Assembly (NCBI GenBank): GCA_017428925.1
Contig: JAFRPY010000044.1
Location: 1-64,000 of the forward strand
DNA length: 64,000 bases
Reading direction: 5' to 3'
Source: Prevotella sp.
GTDB lineage: Bacteria > Bacteroidota > Bacteroidia > Bacteroidales > Bacteroidaceae
The notes under the pieces are model-generated. The model did not search any database and had not been told where the DNA came from. It worked only from the letters and a program-made list of their open reading frames with translations. Positions 9,240 to 21,593 of this stretch are shown here, piece after piece; position 1 is the first letter of the stretch, and each line of letters opens with the position of its first letter. Position numbers and translations under genes: made by a program.

Positions 9240-9247
9240 TAATTTTG
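9240..9247 (+). promoter_or_regulatory. -7 box for the vWA/tubulin-like/actin-like operon
   Basis: TAATTTTG followed by C, a strong TAnnTTTG match, lies 23 nt upstream of the ATG at 9271. It is the only convincing promoter seen for the six-gene operon. Confidence 0.6.
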
Positions 9248-9270: not shown

Positions 9271-10476
9271 ATGAAAAAAGTCATTATACCGGCAACAATT
9301 CTTATTTTGTTGCTCATTGTCTACATGCTCATCCCTCGTGAGCACAATCTTGTTGTGAAGTGGGATTCGGTCAAGACAGAACTGGAGGAAGCCCAGCCGA
9401 TTATCAAGGTTTACATCGAGAATTCAGGCAGTATGGACGGCTATATGGGTTCGGGTGCTGAACTGAAAGATGCCGTTTACAGCTATGTAAGCACGATGGC
9501 AAGCTATTCTCCGGTTGCTCCTCAGCTGCATTTCATCAACACGCAGGTGATTCCTTATGGCGGTTCGCTGAAAAGTTTCATCACAGACATGAACCCCGAA
9601 TCTTTCAGGCAGGCAGGTGGAAGCCGTGCCAATTCGGATATAGCACAGATGGTTGAAATGATGCTGACAGCCCAAGGTAAGAATACGGTAAGCATTTTCG
9701 TGAGTGACTGCATCCTTGATGTCCCCGACGGAGAAGCTGAGAAATTCTTCATTAACCGGCAGATTGACATCAGAAATGCCTTCACTAAGTTCCGCCGCAA
9801 GATGAAGAACCTGAGTGTTGAGGTGTTCCGCATGAAGTCTGAATTCAAGGGAATGTACTATTACAGCAAAGGTGGTGAGCAGCTTGAAGACGTGAAGCGC
9901 CCCTACTTCATGTTTGTCATTGGCGACCGTGATGTTTTGGCTTGGATCAACAAAAACGTTCCTTTCAGCGAAGTAAAGCATGGTATTGAGAACTACTGCG
10001 CTTTCACCACCTATTCGGATGTTTCATTCGACATGACTAATGAGTTTGGTGTTGCTCACAAGAACACACTTGAGTGCCGTTCAGACCGCAAGGGCCGTTG
10101 CCACATGAAGCTGAAAGCCAATCTTCGCACCACACTTCAGGATGACACCTACGTGATGAACCCAGAAAACTATCGTACCCAGAATGCTACAGTCGGAGTG
10201 GGTGCCGTTGAGAGGATTGACGACCAGCAAAGCCCTTACACCCATCTGCTGACCATCGACCTGGATGGAAAGATGAATCCCTCGGGTGAGCAGCTGAAAC
10301 TGATTCAGCAGGAAATGCCTGCATGGATTGAGGCCGTTAATGACGACACTGGCAAAACCATTCGCAAGAACCTGAACAAGACGACTGGAATCAAATACAT
10401 CATTGGTGGAATAGCAGACGCCTACAAGAACGACAAGGTGCTTGCCAACATTAAGTTTAACATCGTAAAAAAATAA
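9271..10476 (+). CDS. Membrane-anchored vWA-like domain protein (first gene of six-gene operon)
   Basis: This 401-residue protein has one N-terminal membrane segment (about residues 4-21) and then a soluble domain. IKVYIENSGSMDGYM (E50-N51-S52-G53-S54) resembles the vWA metal site DxSxS with Glu replacing the first Asp. A GGSRANSDIAQM segment (116-127) and SIFVSDCILD (141-150, D146) fit the second and third metal-ligand loops. vWA domains usually bind partner proteins through a metal ion. No exact family was recognised. It starts an operon containing a tubulin-like and an actin/Hsp70-like protein, so it may be the membrane-facing adaptor. Function is unknown. Confidence 0.6.
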   Translation: MKKVIIPATILILLLIVYMLIPREHNLVVKWDSVKTELEEAQPIIKVYIENSGSMDGYMGSGAELKDAVYSYVSTMASYSPVAPQLHFINTQVIPYGGSLKSFITDMNPESFRQAGGSRANSDIAQMVEMMLTAQGKNTVSIFVSDCILDVPDGEAEKFFINRQIDIRNAFTKFRRKMKNLSVEVFRMKSEFKGMYYYSKGGEQLEDVKRPYFMFVIGDRDVLAWINKNVPFSEVKHGIENYCAFTTYSDVSFDMTNEFGVAHKNTLECRSDRKGRCHMKLKANLRTTLQDDTYVMNPENYRTQNATVGVGAVERIDDQQSPYTHLLTIDLDGKMNPSGEQLKLIQQEMPAWIEAVNDDTGKTIRKNLNKTTGIKYIIGGIADAYKNDKVLANIKFNIVKK

Positions 10477-10485
10477 AACGACAAT

Positions 10486-10944
10486 ATGGGACAATTTTTC
10501 ACAACCATCTACTGCTTCTTCGACGATCTCTTTGGTCTTGAACTGGCAAGTTATCTGGCAGGCGAAGCCACTGAACGCCAGCAGAGCAACATGTTTATGA
10601 GTATTGGTCTTGCCATGATAGGCATCACGTTGCTCGTAGCCGTTATTTTCTATTATGTCATCAACCACCCGAAACTGAACAACTGGTGGGGATGGACGAT
10701 ATTCCTCGTTATCAACGGACTCATCAACTACTTTGTGGGATGGCGTTGGGTGTTGAGCGATTTGCTCGATGGAATGATGGAAAAGATGGATCAGACCACA
10801 GGTCAGCTTATCCCCCTAAGCATCATGGAGAACGATTGTATCAGCTTCGGTTTTGCCAACATGATACTCTCGATGATTACTTTCCTCATTATTTCCTATC
10901 TCATTAAATGGGGAAGCACCAACGTTCCGCGTGCTCCATTCTGA
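10486..10944 (+). CDS. Small multi-pass membrane protein of unknown function
   Basis: This 152-residue protein starts 9 nt after the vWA-like gene. It has three hydrophobic stretches long enough to cross the membrane: about residues 40-60 (SIGLAMIGITLLVAVIFYYV), 69-87 (WTIFLVINGLINYFVGW) and 124-143 (FANMILSMITFLIISYLIKW). The N-terminal 35 residues and the loop after the second segment are polar. No known family was recognised. Its tight spacing suggests it is a membrane component of the system encoded by this operon. Confidence 0.65.
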   Translation: MGQFFTTIYCFFDDLFGLELASYLAGEATERQQSNMFMSIGLAMIGITLLVAVIFYYVINHPKLNNWWGWTIFLVINGLINYFVGWRWVLSDLLDGMMEKMDQTTGQLIPLSIMENDCISFGFANMILSMITFLIISYLIKWGSTNVPRAPF

Positions 10945-10998
10945 TTGTATCCAAACCCATAAAAGAACTTTAAACTAAAATAAACGGCAAATTACAAA

Positions 10999-12396
10999 AT
11001 GTCAAAACTATATGTTTTCGGAATAGGTGGAACAGGGTCGCGTGTGCTCCGTTCCCTTACTATGATGCTTGCCTCAGGCGTTAGGACTCCTCAAACCGAT
11101 ATGGTGCCCATTGTCATTGACCCTGACTCGGCCAATGCTGACCTTACACGGACGGTAGCCCTGATGAACAAATATGGAACACTACGCCAGCAACTCACTT
11201 TCCCAGAAAAAGGCCACGGCACATTCTTCAAGACAAAGATTGACCGTCTGCTGCCTAACTATAACCTGTTGATTAAGGATACTGAAGACCGTCAGTTCCA
11301 GCAGTTCATCGAGTTGCCCGCGATGAGTAAGAAGAACCAGGCCATGATGCGCATGCTGTTCTCTGAAAAGAACCTTGCATCGAGCATGAACGTCGGATTC
11401 AAGGGAAATCCCAATATCGGAAGTGTGGTGCTCAACCAGATTGTCAATTCAGAAGACTTCATTACCTTTGCCAATTCGTTTGAGAAAGGCGACAAGATAT
11501 TCATCGTCAGCAGCATCTTCGGTGGTACTGGTGCCAGCGGATTCCCGCTCTTGCTGAAAACCCTGCGCACGGGTGAAGACTTCCCCAACAACGACCTGAT
11601 TAACAAAGCCGAGATTGGAGCCGTCACCATACTGCCCTATTTCAAGCTTGAACAAAGCGAGGACAGCGAGATTGACTCATCGACCTTCATCTCGAAGGCA
11701 AAGTCTGCCCTAGCCTATTACGAGAACAACATTTCGAAGAATAACCAGATTAATGCGCTCTACTTCCTTGCCGACAACATGTCGAACACCTACGAGAATC
11801 ATGAGGGAGGAACCCAGCAGCGCAACTCAGCCCACCTTGTGGAATTCCTGGCAGCATCGGCAGCCATTGACTTTGCCAACAAGCATCATGAAGGCCCGAC
11901 AGTCAACAAGGAACTGGGCATCAAGGAGAACCACCGTACGGTTCACATGGATTCTTTCTACGATGAACTTACCGCCATGCTACGCATGCCACTCACCCAG
12001 TTTATGATGATGGCCAACTGCATTTCCGACAAGTGGGACTTCGTGAGCAAGAAGAAACTTGCGGCTAACAATGGCAACTTTGACGAGTCGTTCTACAACA
12101 CCCCATTCATGCAGAATCTTAAGTCGTATCTTGAAGACTATAGACTGTGGATTTCTGAGATGAAAGACAACAAGCGCTCGCTTGACCTCTTTAACCTTGA
12201 CTGTGGGGATGAACCGTTCAGCGTGGTAGTTGGCCAGAAGCCAAAGTCTGTATTCACCATGCTTTCCAATTACAACCTTTTCTACGACCGTCTGAACAAT
12301 GCCGTGAAAAAGGCTAAAGGCGACAAGGAAAGCCGCTGGCTTGAGATGTACAGCATAGCCACACAGCAATTGTGCAAAGAAAAATTTGGATTCTGA
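10999..12396 (+). CDS. Tubulin/FtsZ-like NTP-binding protein
   Basis: This 465-residue protein has an N-terminal GIGGTGSR loop (residues 8-15) and a second glycine loop SIFGGTGASG (172-181) after a KIFIVSS strand. That spacing and order match the T1 loop and the GGGTG[S/T]G signature (T4) of tubulin/FtsZ-fold proteins, in particular the divergent bacterial tubulin-like group. The C-terminal half, with many aromatic and charged helices, was not recognised. It probably binds a guanine nucleotide; polymerisation is unproven. It lies directly upstream of an actin/Hsp70-like ATPase gene, an unusual pairing. A Rossmann-type nucleotide-binding protein is the main alternative. Confidence 0.6.
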   Translation: MSKLYVFGIGGTGSRVLRSLTMMLASGVRTPQTDMVPIVIDPDSANADLTRTVALMNKYGTLRQQLTFPEKGHGTFFKTKIDRLLPNYNLLIKDTEDRQFQQFIELPAMSKKNQAMMRMLFSEKNLASSMNVGFKGNPNIGSVVLNQIVNSEDFITFANSFEKGDKIFIVSSIFGGTGASGFPLLLKTLRTGEDFPNNDLINKAEIGAVTILPYFKLEQSEDSEIDSSTFISKAKSALAYYENNISKNNQINALYFLADNMSNTYENHEGGTQQRNSAHLVEFLAASAAIDFANKHHEGPTVNKELGIKENHRTVHMDSFYDELTAMLRMPLTQFMMMANCISDKWDFVSKKKLAANNGNFDESFYNTPFMQNLKSYLEDYRLWISEMKDNKRSLDLFNLDCGDEPFSVVVGQKPKSVFTMLSNYNLFYDRLNNAVKKAKGDKESRWLEMYSIATQQLCKEKFGF

Positions 12397-12455
12397 TTGG
12401 AACGAGACCAAAGATTGATTGAAAAGAAACAACAACTATAGAAAACAAATAAGCC

Positions 12456-15400
12456 GTGTCAAAAATATTTCGCCTCTACACTGAAGGAGCTACGACTTTC
12501 AACGACTGGAACGAAAGCCCTTCATTCCCATACAACAGTAATAATCGCGACAACATCGATGATCCCGATGGTGCCACTGCCAGAAACGAGATTACGAGCA
12601 TACCTTCGCCTTTTGCAAGGATAGACCTTGTGAAGAATGCCTTCAAGATGGTGACCACTCCCCACAAGAAGACGCATGAAACCGATCTCGATGGCAAGAC
12701 TATCTTCCACAAAATGGTGAGCGATGCTCTTGATGTGGGCGAGATTTTCTTCAATATTGATAAATATAAGAACAAGATAGAGATTATATCGTGGGATTCG
12801 GCCCTGATGATTGAGGAACTGAAGCAGAGCGATATGGATGGTCACCGCTATCTGGGTGATGCGCTGGACAAGTATATGCAAAGCGATGCCCAGGCCTATA
12901 ACTTCGATGACTTGCACAATATCTATCTGCTCAACTTCCTGCATGGTCCCGATGAGCTGAACATCATCGGTGCAACTTCACCCGCAACAGTGTTCTTCTC
13001 GAATGCCAACAAACTTGACTATGTGTCGAAGAGCCTGAATTTCGGTCAGTCGTCTCCATTCGATGATGACTACTATCCACTCTACAAGCGCGATTCTGAG
13101 TACATCAAGTTCTGGTTTATCCTGCGCAAGTCGATTCCAGACTTTGCCACACGATTCCCTGAGGTGGAAGAATACCTGAAGCTGACCATGCGTGCCATTA
13201 CCGACAATACGCTTAAATCACAGCTGCGCTCATTGACTGATGCTGATGTGCGTTCTTTGTCGGAGATTGAAGTTAAGGATGAACGCCAGAACAACACGGT
13301 TGAAGTGCTGGGCTATCCGTTGCTGAAACGCTCTGTGGTGAATAACGGAAGTGAAAGCGACTTTGTGATTGACACGACCAAAGACGTTGACATCTTGCCG
13401 CTTGTGCTGCCTATTGACTCAGGTAATCGCTACCGTGACATGTTCTATACCACAGACACATGGGGCAAAATCAATGCTGCACCTTGTGTAGTTGAAGAGC
13501 AGAACCTTGCCAAGCGTGAACTTCCTTTCGATGGTTCCATTCGTGCCTACATCACCATTGGTGACCTGATGGAAGATAACATCATACGGGTTCCCCACAA
13601 ATTGAACAACAAAGAGTATTTCGACGGAAGCATTCAGCTCGGTGAAGAGAAGGTGAGCTACCTGCTTCCGTTGAAACCGCTGTTCTTCAAATATTTTGAT
13701 GTCAACGACCTGATGCGCCCAATGGCTGATGGTTTGCCCATGTTCGAGATGGAACGCCTTGCCGGTGGTTCAGTAAAGGCAACCCTCCGCATTCCTGTCA
13801 AGAGCCGTTCACGCAATAAATATGTGGAATATTCCCGTAACTTCTATGGTGAGAACGAAGCTGACCCGAAGCACAACATCGGTGGAATGAGTGAGTTTGA
13901 CTTTGCCGGCTTTATCATGCCGCTCATCAAATTCAAGCAAGAAGAAGATGCGCTGTTCACCGTCAGCTGTATTTCTACTTATTCCCGCAACTATACGCTG
14001 AAGTTCTTCCAGGGAGATATTCAGCTGCCCGACATCATGATGGATTGCCGAAATGTGAACCGCTCGGCTAACTATAAGGCAGAAAACTACACCATCGAGA
14101 AGCGAAACTTTGACCATATCGAGGTGAGCGATGCTGAAGGCAACAAGGGTGTGATTGTTCCTGTATTCCAGGAACAGCAAAGCGTGAACAGTTTCGACTT
14201 TGCCATCGACCTTGGAACCTCAAATACCCATATTGAATACCGCGTAAACAACGGTCCCACTTCACAGACATTCTCCTACGAACAGGTCGGAAAGCCGTAT
14301 AGTGAATTCTTCACGCCTTCCATGCTTCGGTTTAATGGGCGTCAGCTGCAAGACGACCTCTTGGCTGAACAGTCACTCATGGAACGCGATTTCCTGCCGT
14401 TGGCCGTGACTTCACAGAGCGATTTCCACTTCCCCACCCGTACCGTGCTCTCCGCTGCACAAACCACCAAGTGGCACGAAGTGGTTCGTCCATACGGTAT
14501 GGTGAACATTCCCCTCACCTACGACAAGCGCGAGTCATACCTTTACAACCGCAACATCTACAACATCAAGTGGGGAAAAGGCGAAATGCTGCGTGTGATG
14601 GAGAGCTATGTAGAAACCTTGATGCTGATGATCCGTAACAAGGTGCTTACTGAGCAAGGCGACTTGCAGCGAGTGAAAATCACTTGGTTCTACCCCATCA
14701 GCATGGCTCCCAAGCGTCTGAAGAACCTTCGCGAGACTTGGAACAATGCCTATCAGAAGTATTTCAACCAGTCGCAGGCATCCAACATGTCTGAATCGGC
14801 TGCACCAATCCAATACTTCTTCCGCCGGTATGCCAATGCCACCGACCTGGTGAATATTGACATTGGTGGTGGAACTACCGACATTGCCTTTGCCCGCGAC
14901 AAAGAGATTCAGTATGTGACGAGCTTCCGCTTTGCTGCAAACTCTGTGTTTGAAAACACGTTCTCGGATGTTGACATGTCAAACGGCATCGTCGACTGCT
15001 ACAAAGAGCAGATACTGCGGGTGCTGACGGACAACAAGCTCACGGAGCTGCTTTCCATCTTCAACAGCGAGAACAACGTACAACCGGCCAACATGGCTTC
15101 GTTCCTCTTCACGCTGAAGGAGAACTCAATGGTTCGTGGCCTCGATTCCAAGTATGTTGACTTCAACCACATGCTTCAGGATGACGAGAACTTCAAAATC
15201 ATCTTCATCCTTTTCTACACCGCCATCATCTACCACGTGGCCGAGATACTGAAGGCAAAGAACCTTGAAATGCCGCGCCACATATCCTTCTCGGGTAACG
15301 GTTCGAAGCTCATCACGGTGCTGACCACCGACAACCAGCTGCTTTCCACATTCACCAAGCGCATCATTGAGCATGTGATTGGAAAACCGTACGACAAAGA

Positions 15401-15851
15401 CCTTGAGATATTAGGCTTCGAGAGCGGCAGCAATCCAAAGGAAAGCACCTGTAAAGGCGGACTGCTTGGCGACATCCTTACCGACGACCGCAACAAGATT
15501 GTCATCAAGAAAGCATTCGGTCCCGATTTCATCAGCAAGGAAGACACCTACGACAGAGTAGACGACCAGTACATCAGCAACTCAACCGAGGCTGTGAAGA
15601 CTTTCTTCGACTTTGTGCTCAACGAACTTGACGACATTTTTGACTTCGATGCCAACTTCGGCGTTTCCAAACAATCACTCCAGATTGCCCGTAACGAGTG
15701 CTACAAAGACATTGCCACCTATCTGCGCAAAGGTCTGCAACAACGCCGTGAAGAGAGCGAGGGTGAAGACCGTCTGGAAGAAACGCTGTTCTTCTATCCC
15801 ATCAAGGGAGCCATCCACGAACTATCAAATGCCATTTTTCATGCCATCTAA
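12456..15851 (+). CDS. Large protein with C-terminal actin/Hsp70-like ATPase domain (GTG start)
   Basis: The frame opens with GTG at 12456; no nearby ATG gives a better start. The 1131-residue product has about 570 N-terminal residues of unrecognised, soluble sequence, followed by an ASKHA-fold ATPase: phosphate-1 motif FAIDLGTSNTH (582-592), phosphate-2 motif VNIDIGGGTTDIAF (799-812) and adenosine motif SGNGSK (946-951). This order is that of actin, MreB, ParM and DnaK. No peptide-binding Hsp70 domain follows; the last 130 residues are helical and acidic. It may use ATP to change shape or to polymerise together with the neighbouring tubulin-like protein. Function is unknown. Confidence 0.7.
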   Translation: MSKIFRLYTEGATTFNDWNESPSFPYNSNNRDNIDDPDGATARNEITSIPSPFARIDLVKNAFKMVTTPHKKTHETDLDGKTIFHKMVSDALDVGEIFFNIDKYKNKIEIISWDSALMIEELKQSDMDGHRYLGDALDKYMQSDAQAYNFDDLHNIYLLNFLHGPDELNIIGATSPATVFFSNANKLDYVSKSLNFGQSSPFDDDYYPLYKRDSEYIKFWFILRKSIPDFATRFPEVEEYLKLTMRAITDNTLKSQLRSLTDADVRSLSEIEVKDERQNNTVEVLGYPLLKRSVVNNGSESDFVIDTTKDVDILPLVLPIDSGNRYRDMFYTTDTWGKINAAPCVVEEQNLAKRELPFDGSIRAYITIGDLMEDNIIRVPHKLNNKEYFDGSIQLGEEKVSYLLPLKPLFFKYFDVNDLMRPMADGLPMFEMERLAGGSVKATLRIPVKSRSRNKYVEYSRNFYGENEADPKHNIGGMSEFDFAGFIMPLIKFKQEEDALFTVSCISTYSRNYTLKFFQGDIQLPDIMMDCRNVNRSANYKAENYTIEKRNFDHIEVSDAEGNKGVIVPVFQEQQSVNSFDFAIDLGTSNTHIEYRVNNGPTSQTFSYEQVGKPYSEFFTPSMLRFNGRQLQDDLLAEQSLMERDFLPLAVTSQSDFHFPTRTVLSAAQTTKWHEVVRPYGMVNIPLTYDKRESYLYNRNIYNIKWGKGEMLRVMESYVETLMLMIRNKVLTEQGDLQRVKITWFYPISMAPKRLKNLRETWNNAYQKYFNQSQASNMSESAAPIQYFFRRYANATDLVNIDIGGGTTDIAFARDKEIQYVTSFRFAANSVFENTFSDVDMSNGIVDCYKEQILRVLTDNKLTELLSIFNSENNVQPANMASFLFTLKENSMVRGLDSKYVDFNHMLQDDENFKIIFILFYTAIIYHVAEILKAKNLEMPRHISFSGNGSKLITVLTTDNQLLSTFTKRIIEHVIGKPYDKDLEILGFESGSNPKESTCKGGLLGDILTDDRNKIVIKKAFGPDFISKEDTYDRVDDQYISNSTEAVKTFFDFVLNELDDIFDFDANFGVSKQSLQIARNECYKDIATYLRKGLQQRREESEGEDRLEETLFFYPIKGAIHELSNAIFHAI

Positions 15852-15863
15852 CAACTTGAGATT

Positions 15864-16487
15864 ATGAATTCTTCTGTTATCATCATCGTAGTCCTGGTCA
15901 TTGCATTGGCTGCCATCGGACTCTCCATCAAGGTTTTGCTCGACCTTCTGAAACTGAAAAAAGACATTGAGCAGCAACACTACGACACCGAAGATTCCCT
16001 CAGCGGTATCCGTAAGGCATTGGCAACAGCACAGCGTGAGGCAGACGTTTCGGAAAGTCTCAAGGCTATAGATGAAAGACTGAACAAGCTGGAGCGCTCG
16101 TCAAGAATCTCTGCCGTCAGGGAAGGCGATGCAAATGCCCAGCAACCCAGAGACCTGCCACCCCGCAACGTCAACAAGCAGCCCAAGGACGGGTTCTTCG
16201 GCTCACCTAAAGGTGATGCTGATACCGCTCTTTTCAACGACCAATATGACGAACTGCGCGACGAATGCTTCTTCTCGGTTCATTTCCTTTCAACTACAGA
16301 AGGAGAATATGCTCCCATCGACCTGATGCGCCTGAAGTCGTTGCCATCAATCGAGGGTGTGGTTCGCTATACAGGTTGTCCGCTGAAAGAAGCCCGTGGG
16401 TTCCAGCTTATCAGCAAGGGACAAGTAAAAAAGCAAAGCAACTATTGGGTGGTTACGGCTCCCGCAGAGCTTCAAATGCTGAAATAG
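15864..16487 (+). CDS. Membrane-anchored coiled-coil protein, unknown
   Basis: This 207-residue protein starts 12 nt after the ATPase gene. It has an N-terminal membrane segment (about residues 4-27, SSVIIIVVLVIALAAIGLSI and onward), a charged helical stretch likely to form a coiled coil (about 33-82), a Pro/Gly/Asn-rich linker, and a compact C-terminal region (about 125-207, with ECFFSVHFLSTTEGEYAPID). The C-terminal region has no recognised family. It probably anchors or tethers the operon's cytoplasmic proteins to the inner membrane; this is inference from context. Confidence 0.6.
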   Translation: MNSSVIIIVVLVIALAAIGLSIKVLLDLLKLKKDIEQQHYDTEDSLSGIRKALATAQREADVSESLKAIDERLNKLERSSRISAVREGDANAQQPRDLPPRNVNKQPKDGFFGSPKGDADTALFNDQYDELRDECFFSVHFLSTTEGEYAPIDLMRLKSLPSIEGVVRYTGCPLKEARGFQLISKGQVKKQSNYWVVTAPAELQMLK

Positions 16488-16534
16488 AGAAGCGATAAGT
16501 GATAAATGAAGAGTGATAAGTGTAATTAATCAGA

Positions 16535-17074
16535 ATGGAAAAAGAAGAACTGGAAGTACTTATTGAAATACGCGACTTCTTCCGTCGCCACAAACAGGAA
16601 ATTGCAAAGGAACTTGGTGAGAGCGACAACGCCTTGCGTGAGGCTCTGAAAGATGTCAAGGACACCTCTTATTATAGTGTAACCGAACTGAAGCGACAGA
16701 TTGTCGAGCAGAGTGAGGCTTTCAAGGATATTATCAACGAAGAGCGCGATGCCTTTATCGATGTGAGCAACACCATGAAGGCCCAGTTCGAAAAGCAGGT
16801 AAAGGCTTATCCCTCGATTGCAGAACGACTGGAAGACATGGCCGAAGTGCCGCACAAACTGGATGTATTGGTCAACAAGATGGAACAATACAACTGGCAA
16901 CTTGTGGAGAATGTGAACAACATGATTCGCCGAATTGACCAGCGCCGTGAGGCTGCTCAGGAACGCCATAACCGCATTCCAACCTGGCTTAAATTATTAT
17001 TCGCCGTCAGCCTGACCATCATCACAATCTGTAGTGTTGTGACAATGGTGGCTACGGTAGCAATCTTCAAATAA
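16535..17074 (+). CDS. C-tail-anchored coiled-coil protein, unknown
   Basis: This 179-residue protein is almost entirely charged helix with heptad-like spacing (about residues 1-145) and ends in one hydrophobic segment (about 152-177, LKLLFAVSLTIITICSVVTM), giving a tail-anchored layout opposite to the preceding protein, which is anchored at its N-terminus. No family was recognised. It closes the operon and stops 7 nt from the convergent dipeptidase gene. A role as membrane tether or spacer is plausible but not shown. Confidence 0.6.
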   Translation: MEKEELEVLIEIRDFFRRHKQEIAKELGESDNALREALKDVKDTSYYSVTELKRQIVEQSEAFKDIINEERDAFIDVSNTMKAQFEKQVKAYPSIAERLEDMAEVPHKLDVLVNKMEQYNWQLVENVNNMIRRIDQRREAAQERHNRIPTWLKLLFAVSLTIITICSVVTMVATVAIFK

Positions 17075-18812: not shown

Positions 18813-19424
18813 TTATTCCTCCTTCTTCCTCGGCTCCTTCTTCGCAAGCATCACCACCTGATACACAAAGTCGGTTACCCACTTCTCGGAGAAGCCAAGC
18901 CGCTTGTTGAGCTGGCGGATGGAAAGCACGGTCTTCACCACACCGGCATCCGTATAGTCGTTCTTCGTGAAGATGTCGTGCACGGTCTTCTCGGTCATCG
19001 TGTAGATGGCAGACTTGAAGAAACTGGGCACACGCAGCTTGAACTTCATCAGGTTGCCCGTCAGCATCATCAGGTCGTTGCTGAAGCTCTGGAACTGTAT
19101 CATATAGGTCTGTACGTCTTGAATCTTGCGGCAGCCCTTCTTGATGCTTTTATCGATTTCATCAAAGAAAATGTCGTCGGTCTTATAGAGGTTCTTGAGC
19201 ATTTTTTTGCACTGGCGCTTCTCGGCTATGCCAAGCTTGTTGCGCTCAGTAGCCACGTGCAAAGTGGTCTTAAACACTCGCAAATCGGGCAGCATGGCCA
19301 AGTTGGTGATGCCTACGTTCTCGGCAATGGCCGACTGAAAATACACCCTCACAAGCGTCATATAGTTTTCCATTCCGCCAGCGTCCTCTTCCTTCTTTCT
19401 GAATAGTTTACTGAAAAATCCCAT
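18813..19424 (-). CDS. Conserved-looking cytoplasmic protein of unknown function
   Basis: This 203-residue protein has no signal peptide or membrane segment. It opens with a basic stretch (MGFFSKLFRKKEED) and is mostly helical, with TERNKLGIAEKRQCKKMLKN and SIRQLNKRLGFSEKWVTDFV as conspicuous charged helices. No family was recognised. A well-formed promoter (TTTG at 19488-19491, 20-nt spacer, TAAATTTG at 19460-19467) precedes it by about 35 nt, which supports the start and the reality of the gene. Upstream lies the repeat-rich region 19535-19945. Confidence 0.6.
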   Translation of the reverse strand: MGFFSKLFRKKEEDAGGMENYMTLVRVYFQSAIAENVGITNLAMLPDLRVFKTTLHVATERNKLGIAEKRQCKKMLKNLYKTDDIFFDEIDKSIKKGCRKIQDVQTYMIQFQSFSNDLMMLTGNLMKFKLRVPSFFKSAIYTMTEKTVHDIFTKNDYTDAGVVKTVLSIRQLNKRLGFSEKWVTDFVYQVVMLAKKEPRKKEE

Positions 19425-19970: not shown

Positions 19971-21593
19971 TCAGAAGCGATATCCCAGCGTGACAAGGAA
20001 CTGATGGCGGTTGTTTTCCACCTCGGTCTTGGTGTAATAGTTGTCGATTTCGTCAACCCAGAGCTGGCCGTCTTGAATAAAATAGTCGTCAGCATAAGCA
20101 TCCATGAACGGGCAGAAATCGCCTTTCTGAGTGCTGTACTGGTAGGCAAGGTCGGCATAGAACTTGCCGAAGGTGTAGCCCAAGCCAAGCGTTAAGCGGT
20201 TGGTAGCCTTCCAGTTGGTGAAGTCGGTAGCTGAAGCCACGTTCGTGCCGTAAGAGTCGCGATAGGCATCCTTGAAGCCATTCTCGTTGTACATCGGGCT
20301 GACGTAGTTGTAACCAACGCGGAGGGCAACTTCCGGAACGGGCTTGTATTCTAAACCTAACTTCAGGGTGCTCACTCCCTTCAACGTCTTTTCGGTATGG
20401 TCCTTCATGGCCACGTCCTTTGAGCTTGAGCTGTAGTATTCGTCGTAGTACCAGTCATAGTAGTCGCTCTCCTTCACACGCGGGTTGGTTGCGCCATAGT
20501 CGGAATACTCGTAAACGGCACCCAATGCCAGGTAATTGCCAACGGTGTGACCCAGGCTGACTCCGAACTTCATGGGAGAATTGACCCTGAAGTCGTAGGA
20601 ATCAGAAGCCACGTAGTTGGGATTGACGGCCTTCACGGTGGTATTGTTCTGCAGCCAGGTGGTGTTTGATGTCGTCAAGTCGTAGAACGTTGGCGAGGCG
20701 AACGAAACACCGATACGGAAAGGAGACTCCTCGATGGGGCGGAAAATGGCACCCAGCTTGAAGTTAACGCCCGTACCCTTAATCTTGCGCTCATCGAACA
20801 CGGTGACATTGCCAACCGCTGGTCCGTCATAACTCACCAGATGCTCAGTATATTCGCTGTAGCCCCTGTAGTGGACGTCTTGGAAGCCAATGGTGAAACC
20901 GAGGTACACACGGTCGTTGATGTTGCCACTGACGCTGAAATCGTATTCACCGATATAGCCCTTGCTTGCACGATTCATGTTGTAGGCATCGGCCATATTG
21001 AAGCCACCGACTCCATCTTGATCAATGATAAACGTATTGTAATAAAGGTTATCAATCTGGCTGGTGTAGTAGAAATCACCATAATAGTAATTGCCCTTGT
21101 GGTTCAAGGCATAAGTCGACGCTCCACTTTCGTCAGGATCAGCAAGCATCTTGATATACGACAACGCATTCTGCGAGGCCTTTGGGCTCAGATGGTCCTG
21201 TGCGGCCGAGAGAATATAGTTGAAGTCGCGGTTCTTATGGTAGTTGAACGCCAAGTTGATGCTGCTGCCATTGTCTTTGTTGCTCCAAACGAATCCAACC
21301 TGGTCGAAGTCAGCATGAGCCTTGCTGGCATTGTTAAAGTCCTGGGCTTCTGACTGCAAGGTGAGTCCAGCCGTGGCAGATACCTGCGAACTGCGGAACA
21401 GTCCCAGACCGGCAGGGTTGTTAGTGATGGTGGAAATCTCGGCTCCCAGTGCATCCATCGCACCGCCCATGCCCACGTAGCGTGCCGTACCATTAAGGTC
21501 GCTGGTCACTATGTTTGCATTCTCGTAGGTTTCCTGAGCCACTGCCGGCAGAGCGGCAACAAGGCAGAAAGCCATAATATATTTCTTCATCAT
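19971..21593 (-). CDS. OmpP1/FadL-type outer membrane transport protein
   Basis: This 540-residue protein has a signal peptide (MMKKYIMAFCLVAALPAVAQ) and, soon after, GTARYVGMGGAMDALGAEIS and TITNNPAGLGLF, the NPA-containing N-terminal hatch typical of FadL-family barrels. Alternating beta-strands fill the rest and the chain ends in YRF, an outer-membrane assembly signal. FadL proteins let hydrophobic compounds such as fatty acids cross the outer membrane; the actual substrate is unknown. It follows the aromatic-rich protein gene by 54 nt and is closed by a terminator. Confidence 0.85.
   Translation of the reverse strand: MMKKYIMAFCLVAALPAVAQETYENANIVTSDLNGTARYVGMGGAMDALGAEISTITNNPAGLGLFRSSQVSATAGLTLQSEAQDFNNASKAHADFDQVGFVWSNKDNGSSINLAFNYHKNRDFNYILSAAQDHLSPKASQNALSYIKMLADPDESGASTYALNHKGNYYYGDFYYTSQIDNLYYNTFIIDQDGVGGFNMADAYNMNRASKGYIGEYDFSVSGNINDRVYLGFTIGFQDVHYRGYSEYTEHLVSYDGPAVGNVTVFDERKIKGTGVNFKLGAIFRPIEESPFRIGVSFASPTFYDLTTSNTTWLQNNTTVKAVNPNYVASDSYDFRVNSPMKFGVSLGHTVGNYLALGAVYEYSDYGATNPRVKESDYYDWYYDEYYSSSSKDVAMKDHTEKTLKGVSTLKLGLEYKPVPEVALRVGYNYVSPMYNENGFKDAYRDSYGTNVASATDFTNWKATNRLTLGLGYTFGKFYADLAYQYSTQKGDFCPFMDAYADDYFIQDGQLWVDEIDNYYTKTEVENNRHQFLVTLGYRF

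Follow-up and report, generated by a model that had tools for sequence, protein, structure and literature searches.

What does a bacterium do with an operon that sets a tubulin-like protein beside an actin/Hsp70-like ATPase, and does such an operon belong to any described system? The question is raised by six genes at positions 9271..17074 of a 64,000-nt stretch of DNA from Prevotella sp. (assembly GCA_017428925.1, contig JAFRPY010000044.1). We refer to the whole stretch as "the window". A sequence-only reading of this DNA had proposed a membrane-tethered machine driven by nucleoside triphosphates (NTPs), or a stress or defence assembly, and had matched it to no described system. The general part of this proposal stands: a membrane-tethered, NTP-driven assembly is supported as the best general reading. 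The claim of novelty falls, because operons with vWA and FtsZ-like 1 genes were described in 2010 (PMC2875224), and conflict systems that combine tubulin with vWA, or that use HSP70, in 2020 (PMC7159879), going by the parts of these papers available to us. That reading also missed the hydrolase gene and the ZorAB-type motor that relatives have beside the operon, and the nature of the sixth gene, a ZorA-like gene that has lost its head. Here, we lean towards the view that the window operon is a motor-less derivative of a patchily distributed, trans-envelope, NTP-switched surveillance operon. Its six genes are listed below; TM denotes transmembrane, and dN/dS the ratio of nonsynonymous to synonymous substitution rates.

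9271..10476, + strand: gene 1, vWA-like, with an N-terminal membrane anchor, the remainder predicted to be periplasmic (TM prediction, motif)
10486..10944, + strand: gene 2, small multi-TM protein (TM4), two TM segments in the window (TM prediction)
10999..12396, + strand: gene 3, a member of the tubulin/FtsZ superfamily (Tubulin_2 / FtsZ-like 1 kind), 465 residues (Pfam, loops, homologues)
12456..15851, + strand: gene 4, 1131 amino acids (aa), with a C-terminal ASKHA ATPase domain (motifs, profiles)
15864..16487, + strand: gene 5 (g5), with an N-terminal TM segment, a coiled coil and a C-terminal domain common to relatives (TM prediction, alignment)
16535..17074, + strand: gene 6, ZorA-like C-terminal tail (coiled coil and C-terminal TM segment), channel head gone (BLASTP, dN/dS)

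The open reading frame (ORF) list confirms six intact + strand frames, with gaps of 9, 54, 59, 12, and 47 nt, as the earlier reading had described them. A search with a tubulin alignment confirmed at least 468 loci, of which the best 80 (L029-L108), i.e., those most like the window, were analysed. Many of the records are metagenome-assembled genomes (MAGs), ORF calling was mechanical, and the gene labels come from profiles built from the same families. The best 80 loci are mainly from Bacteroidota, with one Leptospiraceae MAG and one Sulfuricurvum MAG. In all 80, the ASKHA gene follows the tubulin gene, and the vWA-like and TM4 genes lie 5' of the tubulin gene in all 71 loci with more than 2.5 kb of upstream sequence, as judged with family profiles. 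Median gaps in the conserved core order are 9, 12, and 4 nt. Across relatives, the genes are therefore kept together. Two Bacillota-labelled records, L031 (Oscillibacter label) and L060 (Acetatifactor label), hold Bacteroidota-type operons, and the L031 tubulin is identical to that of L032; both are probably mis-binned MAG contigs.

The tubulin/FtsZ-type loops reported for the 465-residue protein are well supported across its family. They lie at the following positions.

11020..11043, + strand: T1-like glycine loop of gene 3, residues 8-15 (motif)
11512..11541, + strand: T4-like loop SIFGGTGASG of gene 3, residues 172-181 (motif)

The T1 loop (GGTGSR, residues 10-15) follows a pattern shared by 53/54 members of the family; the T4 loop (FGGTGASG, residues 174-181) follows one shared by all 54, and was also one of the two search patterns used to gather tubulin loci. 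Pfam matches of gene 3 to Tubulin_2 (E=1.2e-5, 25.2 bits) and Tubulin (E=3.5e-5, 24.6 bits) are under the curated cut-offs of 27 and 33, respectively. At E<=0.01, Tubulin is matched by 52/54 family members and Tubulin_2 by 51/54, the best match being 3e-9. PDB searches with gene 3 family profiles gave weak matches (E=0.026-0.05), with tubulin/FtsZ chains on top. One homologue, from a Gloeothece plasmid, already carries a tubulin-like annotation. For profile comparison, Bacteroidales reference sets were assembled from the loci that passed an ORF filter (15/25 for FtsZ, 9/30 for vWA, and 13/25 for MreB). The gene 3 family scored 0.4% against Bacteroidales FtsZ, though it was aligned at the T4 loop; comparisons in which the tubulin, ASKHA, or vWA-like family was set against a non-matching reference scored 0–1%. 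The T6-H7 region of FtsZ-like 1 (FtsZl1) could not be identified in the 2010 study, according to the portion of it at hand (PMC2875224). Membership of gene 3 in the tubulin superfamily is supported, with the fold assigned from sequence. The source assembly contains two further strong FtsZ-type matches (C95:22161-22634 and C50:14242-14712), one of which may be contamination.

Gene 4 has the three ASKHA nucleotide motifs that were first noticed near its C-terminus, and it has them in ASKHA order.

14205..14228, + strand: phosphate-1 motif IDLGTSNT of gene 4, residue 584 (28/30 members)
14856..14882, + strand: phosphate-2 motif IDIGGGTTD of gene 4, residue 801 (strict pattern in 22/30 members)
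15288..15302, + strand: adenosine motif FSGNG of gene 4, residue 945 (25/30 members)

The Pfam match to Ppx-GppA is under the cut-off for gene 4 itself (E=6.3e-5) and is found in 15/30 family members at E<=0.01. A PDB search with the family profile retrieved MreB and Hsp70 chains from E=0.0025, and comparison with the Bacteroidales MreB profile gave 64%. An ASKHA assignment is thus supported for the C-terminal half, while the N-terminal half has a fold that we do not recognise. An ASKHA ATPase as partner of an FtsZ-like 1 tubulin appears to be new here. SrfB (PF07520) was considered as an identity for gene 4 and rejected: it was unmatched in the organism's own genome and in the Pfam scan, the own-genome search being weak and also silent in control genomes.

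What most closely related operons have, and the window does not, is an ion motor. Among the 66 best-80 loci with more than 8 kb of downstream sequence, a ZorA-like gene is present in 57 and both ZorA-like and ZorB-like genes in 53; nine loci have neither, and four have a ZorA-like gene alone. All 31 ZorB-like proteins examined match PADLOC ZorB models (best 8e-16) and carry the Asp-bearing TM motif. In the PDB, their profile matches a MotB-related protein at E=1.5e-14 and another chain at 2e-7. The entries 8vvn and 8qyd are structures of ZorAB. The ZorB assignment, made from sequence, is strong, and it suggests that the partner earlier described as "OmpA" is a ZorB/MotB protein, an identification new here. 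The ZorA assignment is weaker, and it draws on N-terminal TM segments (at least two in the first 300 residues in 60/60 ZorA-like proteins), on adjacency to ZorB (52 adjacent pairs, median gap 2 nt), and on weak PDB matches to MotA/TolQ/ExbB chains (0.0026, 0.0074) among hits that are mostly coiled-coil artefacts. A TM segment is found in the last 130 residues of 49/60 ZorA-like proteins. In L060 (217 and 250 aa) and L099 (265 and 212 aa), two tandem ZorB-like genes follow the ZorA-like gene, as if two different ZorB subunits served in the motor.

In 38 of 41 loci, the gene after ZorB is a hydrolase of one of three exchangeable kinds. From the 53 loci, 12 were dropped, either for an opposite-strand gene, a gene of <140 aa, or a second ZorB. 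The 41 genes that were kept fall into three disjoint sets, i.e., trypsin-like proteases (21), retropepsin-like aspartyl proteases (13), and DNA/RNA non-specific endonucleases (4), apart from those of L039, L082, and L104, which belong to none of these kinds. A lipobox-like motif is present in 24 of the 41. Three hydrolase kinds at one place in an operon would resemble modular effector systems, and this slot after ZorB seems to be new here.

The window lacks the ZorA-like head, ZorB, and the hydrolase; what it retains is the tail. By BLASTP, gene 6 matches residues 313-501 of the 510-residue ZorA-like protein of L040 (2e-38, 38% identity over 189 columns). Against 61 ZorA-like proteins, it matched 20, in every case from residue 295 or later. 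PADLOC gave weak matches to gene 6 only, among the six window proteins, and its hint of ZorA was right for the tail, as judged by BLASTP; no ZorC/ZorD or ZorE effector was found by PADLOC among these six. ZorB is absent from the window, and a search of the remaining assembly (85% complete), made without a positive control, did not find it. The same tail-only form of gene 6 is present in the two nearest relatives among the best 80, L041 (Prevotella sp., sheep omasum MAG; tubulin-like protein 96% identical) and L029 (Prevotellaceae MAG; 91%).

Gene 6 is under purifying selection. Between the window and L041, its dN/dS is 0.033 (dS 0.96), and genes 1-4 give 0.02–0.05, as compared with 0.06 and 0.05 for the flanking M64 and C69 peptidase genes; the comparison with L029 gives 0.030, with dS saturated at ~2.1. 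Between L041 and L029, gene 6 has a dN/dS of 0.113 (dS 0.75), and the tubulin and ASKHA genes 0.06. In the tubulin tree, the window, L029, and L041 form one clade (100/100), nested in a group of 16 rows (95/82) that includes 11 rows with ZorAB and two unclassified. The 14 motor-less rows of the tree need nine changes by program count, in which unclassified rows count as a third label; by eye, they make up about seven separate groups, one of which consists of two long-branch rows. A hand-picked set of 20 same-genus loci has ZorAB in seven and lacks it in 12, the contig of L263 being too short; some of these loci seem identical to records among the best 80 (e.g., L259 and L034).

Three other membrane proteins, two of them anchored from opposite ends, had been predicted in addition to gene 1. 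This is borne out by the two TM segments of gene 2, the N-terminal segment of gene 5, and the C-terminal segment of gene 6. Gene 1 has a single plain N-terminal TM segment and no lipobox-like motif; such a motif is found in 27/40 family members. It also has a motif like that of a metal ion-dependent adhesion site (MIDAS).

9418..9432, + strand: MIDAS-like motif ENSGS of gene 1, residues 50-54 (alignment; partner Asp, D146, at 9706-9708)

The MIDAS-like series (D/E)xSxS...T/S...D, a pattern drawn up after inspecting the family alignment, is present in 34/40 gene 1 family members, in 0/8000 shuffles, and in 0/191 proteins from five other sets. A PDB search with the family profile gave no match up to E=1. 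Judging from the motif, vWA identity is likely. Gene 5 is the fastest-evolving gene of the operon, with a dN/dS of 0.13 between the window and L041, roughly three- to sixfold the 0.02–0.05 of genes 1-4. Its length in relatives ranges from ~170 to 450 aa, and several relatives have an additional N-terminal part before the TM segment that is absent from the window protein. Two operons without ZorAB (L020 and L021) have a g5-like gene of 423–447 aa, followed by a similar gene of 201–229 aa.

The operon is widespread but patchily distributed. Counting the source genome in each case, the tubulin gene is present in 78/299 same-genus genomes (50/130 of those of good quality), the ASKHA gene in 12/101 genomes of the family, and 6/198 genomes in a phylum-wide sample have a match at E<=1e-10. 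Six plasmid records match the tubulin: one 1.77-Mb Prevotella replicon and five from cyanobacteria. Two of the cyanobacterial plasmids have an ASKHA gene (5e-20, 2e-31) immediately after the tubulin gene (2e-47, 3e-43), and a vWA-like gene lies 5' of the tubulin gene, in one case on the opposite strand with the motif VDGSGSM (7e-9) and in the other at 3e-4. None of the genes examined on these plasmids matches the ZorA or ZorB profiles, suggesting that the vWA-like/tubulin/ASKHA core is older than ZorAB, or not tied to it. The two plasmids, L249 and L250, are typed as mobilizable, and by eye their downstream genes seem to repeat the g5-like C-terminal domain. The plasmid copy of strain PCC 7003 adjoins an alternate F1F0 ATPase cluster.

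Several described systems share parts with this operon. In 2010, Makarova and Koonin described the FtsZ-like 1 family, whose operons include genes for vWA, OmpA, GTPase, and kinase proteins, and suggested a role for these operons in membrane remodelling; in the sections of the paper available, OmpA-family genes are noted in the vWA/FtsZl1 operons of several genomes, and Bacteroides caccae appears in an alignment legend that does not state which family is meant (PMC2875224). A reviewer of that paper queried how periplasmic vWA and OmpA proteins could cooperate with a cytoplasmic FtsZ (PMC2875224). The operons described here are like these in having a tubulin-superfamily gene beside vWA and membrane-protein genes and in their patchy spread; the vWA gene of the FtsZl1 operon has a counterpart in 71/71 loci with enough upstream sequence, identified with a family profile and taken as vWA-like from its MIDAS-like motif. 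Unlike the FtsZl1 operons as portrayed in those sections, they have an ASKHA ATPase, a ZorA/MotA-like channel, and a hydrolase slot (PMC2875224). The window operon also differs from the several OmpA-bearing genomes of 2010 in having no OmpA/ZorB gene. The P-loop GTPase that is frequent in the 2010 operons, as reported there, is represented here by a pattern in 2/591 operon ORFs, both of them ASKHA or vWA-like and probably matched by chance.

The likeness to Zorya lies in the ZorB homologue of relatives (31/31) and in a ZorA-like protein with N-terminal TM segments and a long C-terminal tail. In Zorya, defence needs peptidoglycan binding by ZorB, the ZorA tail, and ion flow, according to the available part of one study (PMC11890865). 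Unlike Zorya, the present operons have a core of tubulin, ASKHA, and vWA-like genes and, in relatives, a protease or nuclease gene after ZorB; the ZorA-like tails of relatives end in an extra TM segment (49/60), and the window has the tail alone. With the GAP1-N2 GTPase-centric conflict systems of Kaur et al. (2020), they share tubulin, vWA, and HSP70-family parts, membrane anchoring, and modular effectors; they differ in having no credible GTPase signature and in bringing tubulin and ASKHA together, since in the accessible text tubulin with vWA, and HSP70, are non-overlapping themes (PMC7159879). A further likeness is to the vWA force transducers of TolQ-like motors, in which vWA proteins are tied to a proton-driven 5:2 envelope motor. 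There, the vWA protein bears the motor-contacting or pore helix, whereas here a separate ZorB-like protein holds the Asp helix, and the word "tubulin" does not occur in the part of that description available to us (PMC12204202). In the literature searched, no paper was apparent that joins tubulin, ASKHA, and ZorAB.

How might the parts work together? In the core there would be a vWA-like protein, anchored in the membrane and probably periplasmic, along with TM4, a tubulin GTPase, the large ATPase of ASKHA type, and g5 as a TM/coiled-coil adaptor. Most of the closest Bacteroidota relatives examined also carry a single hydrolase gene and an ion motor of ZorAB type, which, to judge by Zorya, would be 5:2 and peptidoglycan-bound. 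The vWA-like protein and the hydrolase are probably periplasmic, TM4, g5, and the motor would sit in the inner membrane, and the tubulin and ASKHA proteins would be cytoplasmic. The vWA-like protein and, if present, ZorB may sense the condition of the periplasm and the wall, and the signal would then pass the inner membrane by way of TM4, g5, and the tail of ZorA. In the cytoplasm, the tubulin and ASKHA proteins would assemble into a switch worked by nucleotides, which fixes the threshold and the duration. In response, the envelope would be remodelled locally and the hydrolase deployed, phage being a plausible target. Because ZorAB joins wall and cytoplasm in Zorya, and the core persists without ZorAB, the core is plausibly switched by NTPs, and the motor would be an exchangeable part that senses or drives. 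In the window form, the ZorA-like tail may serve as a tail-anchored docking piece, with drive from nucleotide hydrolysis alone. The retention of the gene 6 tail under selection suggests that it has a job which persists after loss of the motor, namely to dock the cytoplasmic assembly at the membrane or to bundle it there. As to function, an anti-phage role is the likeliest single one, held at somewhat less than even confidence, and a response to another envelope stress is possible, with a little less in its favour.

A number of observations weigh against this reading. No PADLOC system covers the six window proteins, a phage collection gave no match at E<=1e-5, and the operon is flanked by ordinary genes (ftsK, lolA, M64, and TPR genes on one side, a C69 peptidase gene on the other). 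The vWA-like nature claimed for gene 1 by the sequence-only reading keeps its MIDAS-like motif and single TM segment, but vWA Pfam models match 0/40 family members, and hhalign of the family with nine Bacteroidales vWA proteins gave 3%, aligned away from the MIDAS. ZorA-like heads match weakly, each PADLOC ZorA model finding at most 6/35 members, with coiled coils as a confounder. On the cyanobacterial plasmids, the small TM gene is not matched by the TM4 profile, and it resembles the TM4 gene in position and size only. The case for gene 6 as a functional gene comes from three close relatives, between which dS is high and in part saturated. Lastly, the motor-less form is the commoner one among the hand-picked same-genus loci (12 of the 19 decidable), which also suggests that the core does not need the motor.

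Of the rival explanations, the one that survives best, albeit as an unlikely one, is envelope protein-quality control or cell-wall maintenance, in which the Hsp70-like ATPase and proteases would handle misfolded envelope proteins while the motor pulls on the wall. It would account for the trypsin-like and aspartyl proteases beside the operon in relatives, for the MreB/Hsp70/Ppx matches of gene 4, and for ftsK and lolA near the window operon; it sits poorly with a nuclease in the hydrolase place in 4/41 loci and with the 221/299 same-genus genomes that have no match, many of them being incomplete. About as improbable is a membrane-remodelling cytoskeleton, with FtsZ-like filaments shaping the inner membrane and no role in defence. 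This was put forward by Makarova and Koonin for vWA/FtsZl1 operons, as the available text has it (PMC2875224), and a tubulin surrounded by membrane proteins fits it. The periplasm/cytoplasm question of the reviewer in the same source counts against it (PMC2875224), a ZorAB-type motor being what would join both sides; moreover, an exchangeable hydrolase slot is unexpected for a shaping scaffold. The patchy distribution also speaks against it.

That the operon is a decaying remnant, its motor deleted and its other genes being lost, is very improbable. The operon has indeed lost the ZorA-like head, ZorB, and the hydrolase; ZorB is unmatched elsewhere in the 85% complete genome (again with no positive control), and the gene 6 dN/dS of 0.113 between L041 and L029 exceeds the 0.06 of tubulin and ASKHA. 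Yet the six frames are intact, the dN/dS values against L041 (genes 1-4, 0.02–0.05; gene 6, 0.03) are like those of M64 (0.06) and C69 (0.05), the truncated form is common to three genomes, and motor-less forms recur in the genus. Membership in the GAP1-N2 GTPase-centred conflict systems, which according to the accessible text pair tubulin with vWA, or use HSP70, with membrane anchoring (PMC7159879), is just as doubtful, given a P-loop GTPase signature in just 2/591 operon ORFs and the co-occurrence in 80/80 loci of the tubulin and HSP70 themes that do not overlap there.

The surroundings of the operon were also considered. The 5' neighbours are ftsK, lolA, an M64 peptidase gene, and a TPR gene; the C69 peptidase gene lies 3', tail to tail with the operon and 7 nt away. 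Beyond it are two − strand ORFs, at 18813-19424 (203 aa) and 19971-21593 (540 aa), with no Pfam match at E<=0.001. At 19 other same-genus loci with C69 orthologues, no TPR, M64, gene 1, or gene 6 match was found within ~1.5 kb; at 20 other TPR loci, M64 lies beside TPR in 10, and gene 1 or C69 lies within ~1.5 kb in none. The flanks of the window operon are thus not close neighbours in other same-genus loci, and no clean empty site was found. The source assembly measures 3.56 Mb, with 85% completeness and 5.4% contamination. Upstream of gene 1 there is a candidate promoter element.

9240..9247, + strand: candidate -7 element of the operon promoter, TAATTTTG (sequence)

The octamer TAATTTTG at 9240-9247 agrees with the Bacteroides -7 consensus and is a putative promoter element.

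If the motor-less surveillance reading is right, the FtsZ-like 1 operons of 2010 gain concrete partners: an ASKHA ATPase, a ZorAB-type motor, and hydrolases. The motor would offer an answer to the reviewer of that time, by letting a cytoplasmic tubulin and periplasmic, peptidoglycan-binding proteins work together. Having both cytomotive folds fixed in one operon would be unusual. More tentatively, these operons may represent a new class of immune or envelope-surveillance system, which would combine a tubulin GTPase, an ASKHA ATPase, a Zorya-type peptidoglycan-bound ion motor, and exchangeable proteases or nucleases, the motor having been cut away in some lineages, including that of the window. 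The motor-less natural variant would provide a direct test of what motor and tail each contribute in Zorya-like systems, and loss of the motor would, if this is true, have left a once ion-driven device with nucleotides as its sole source of drive.

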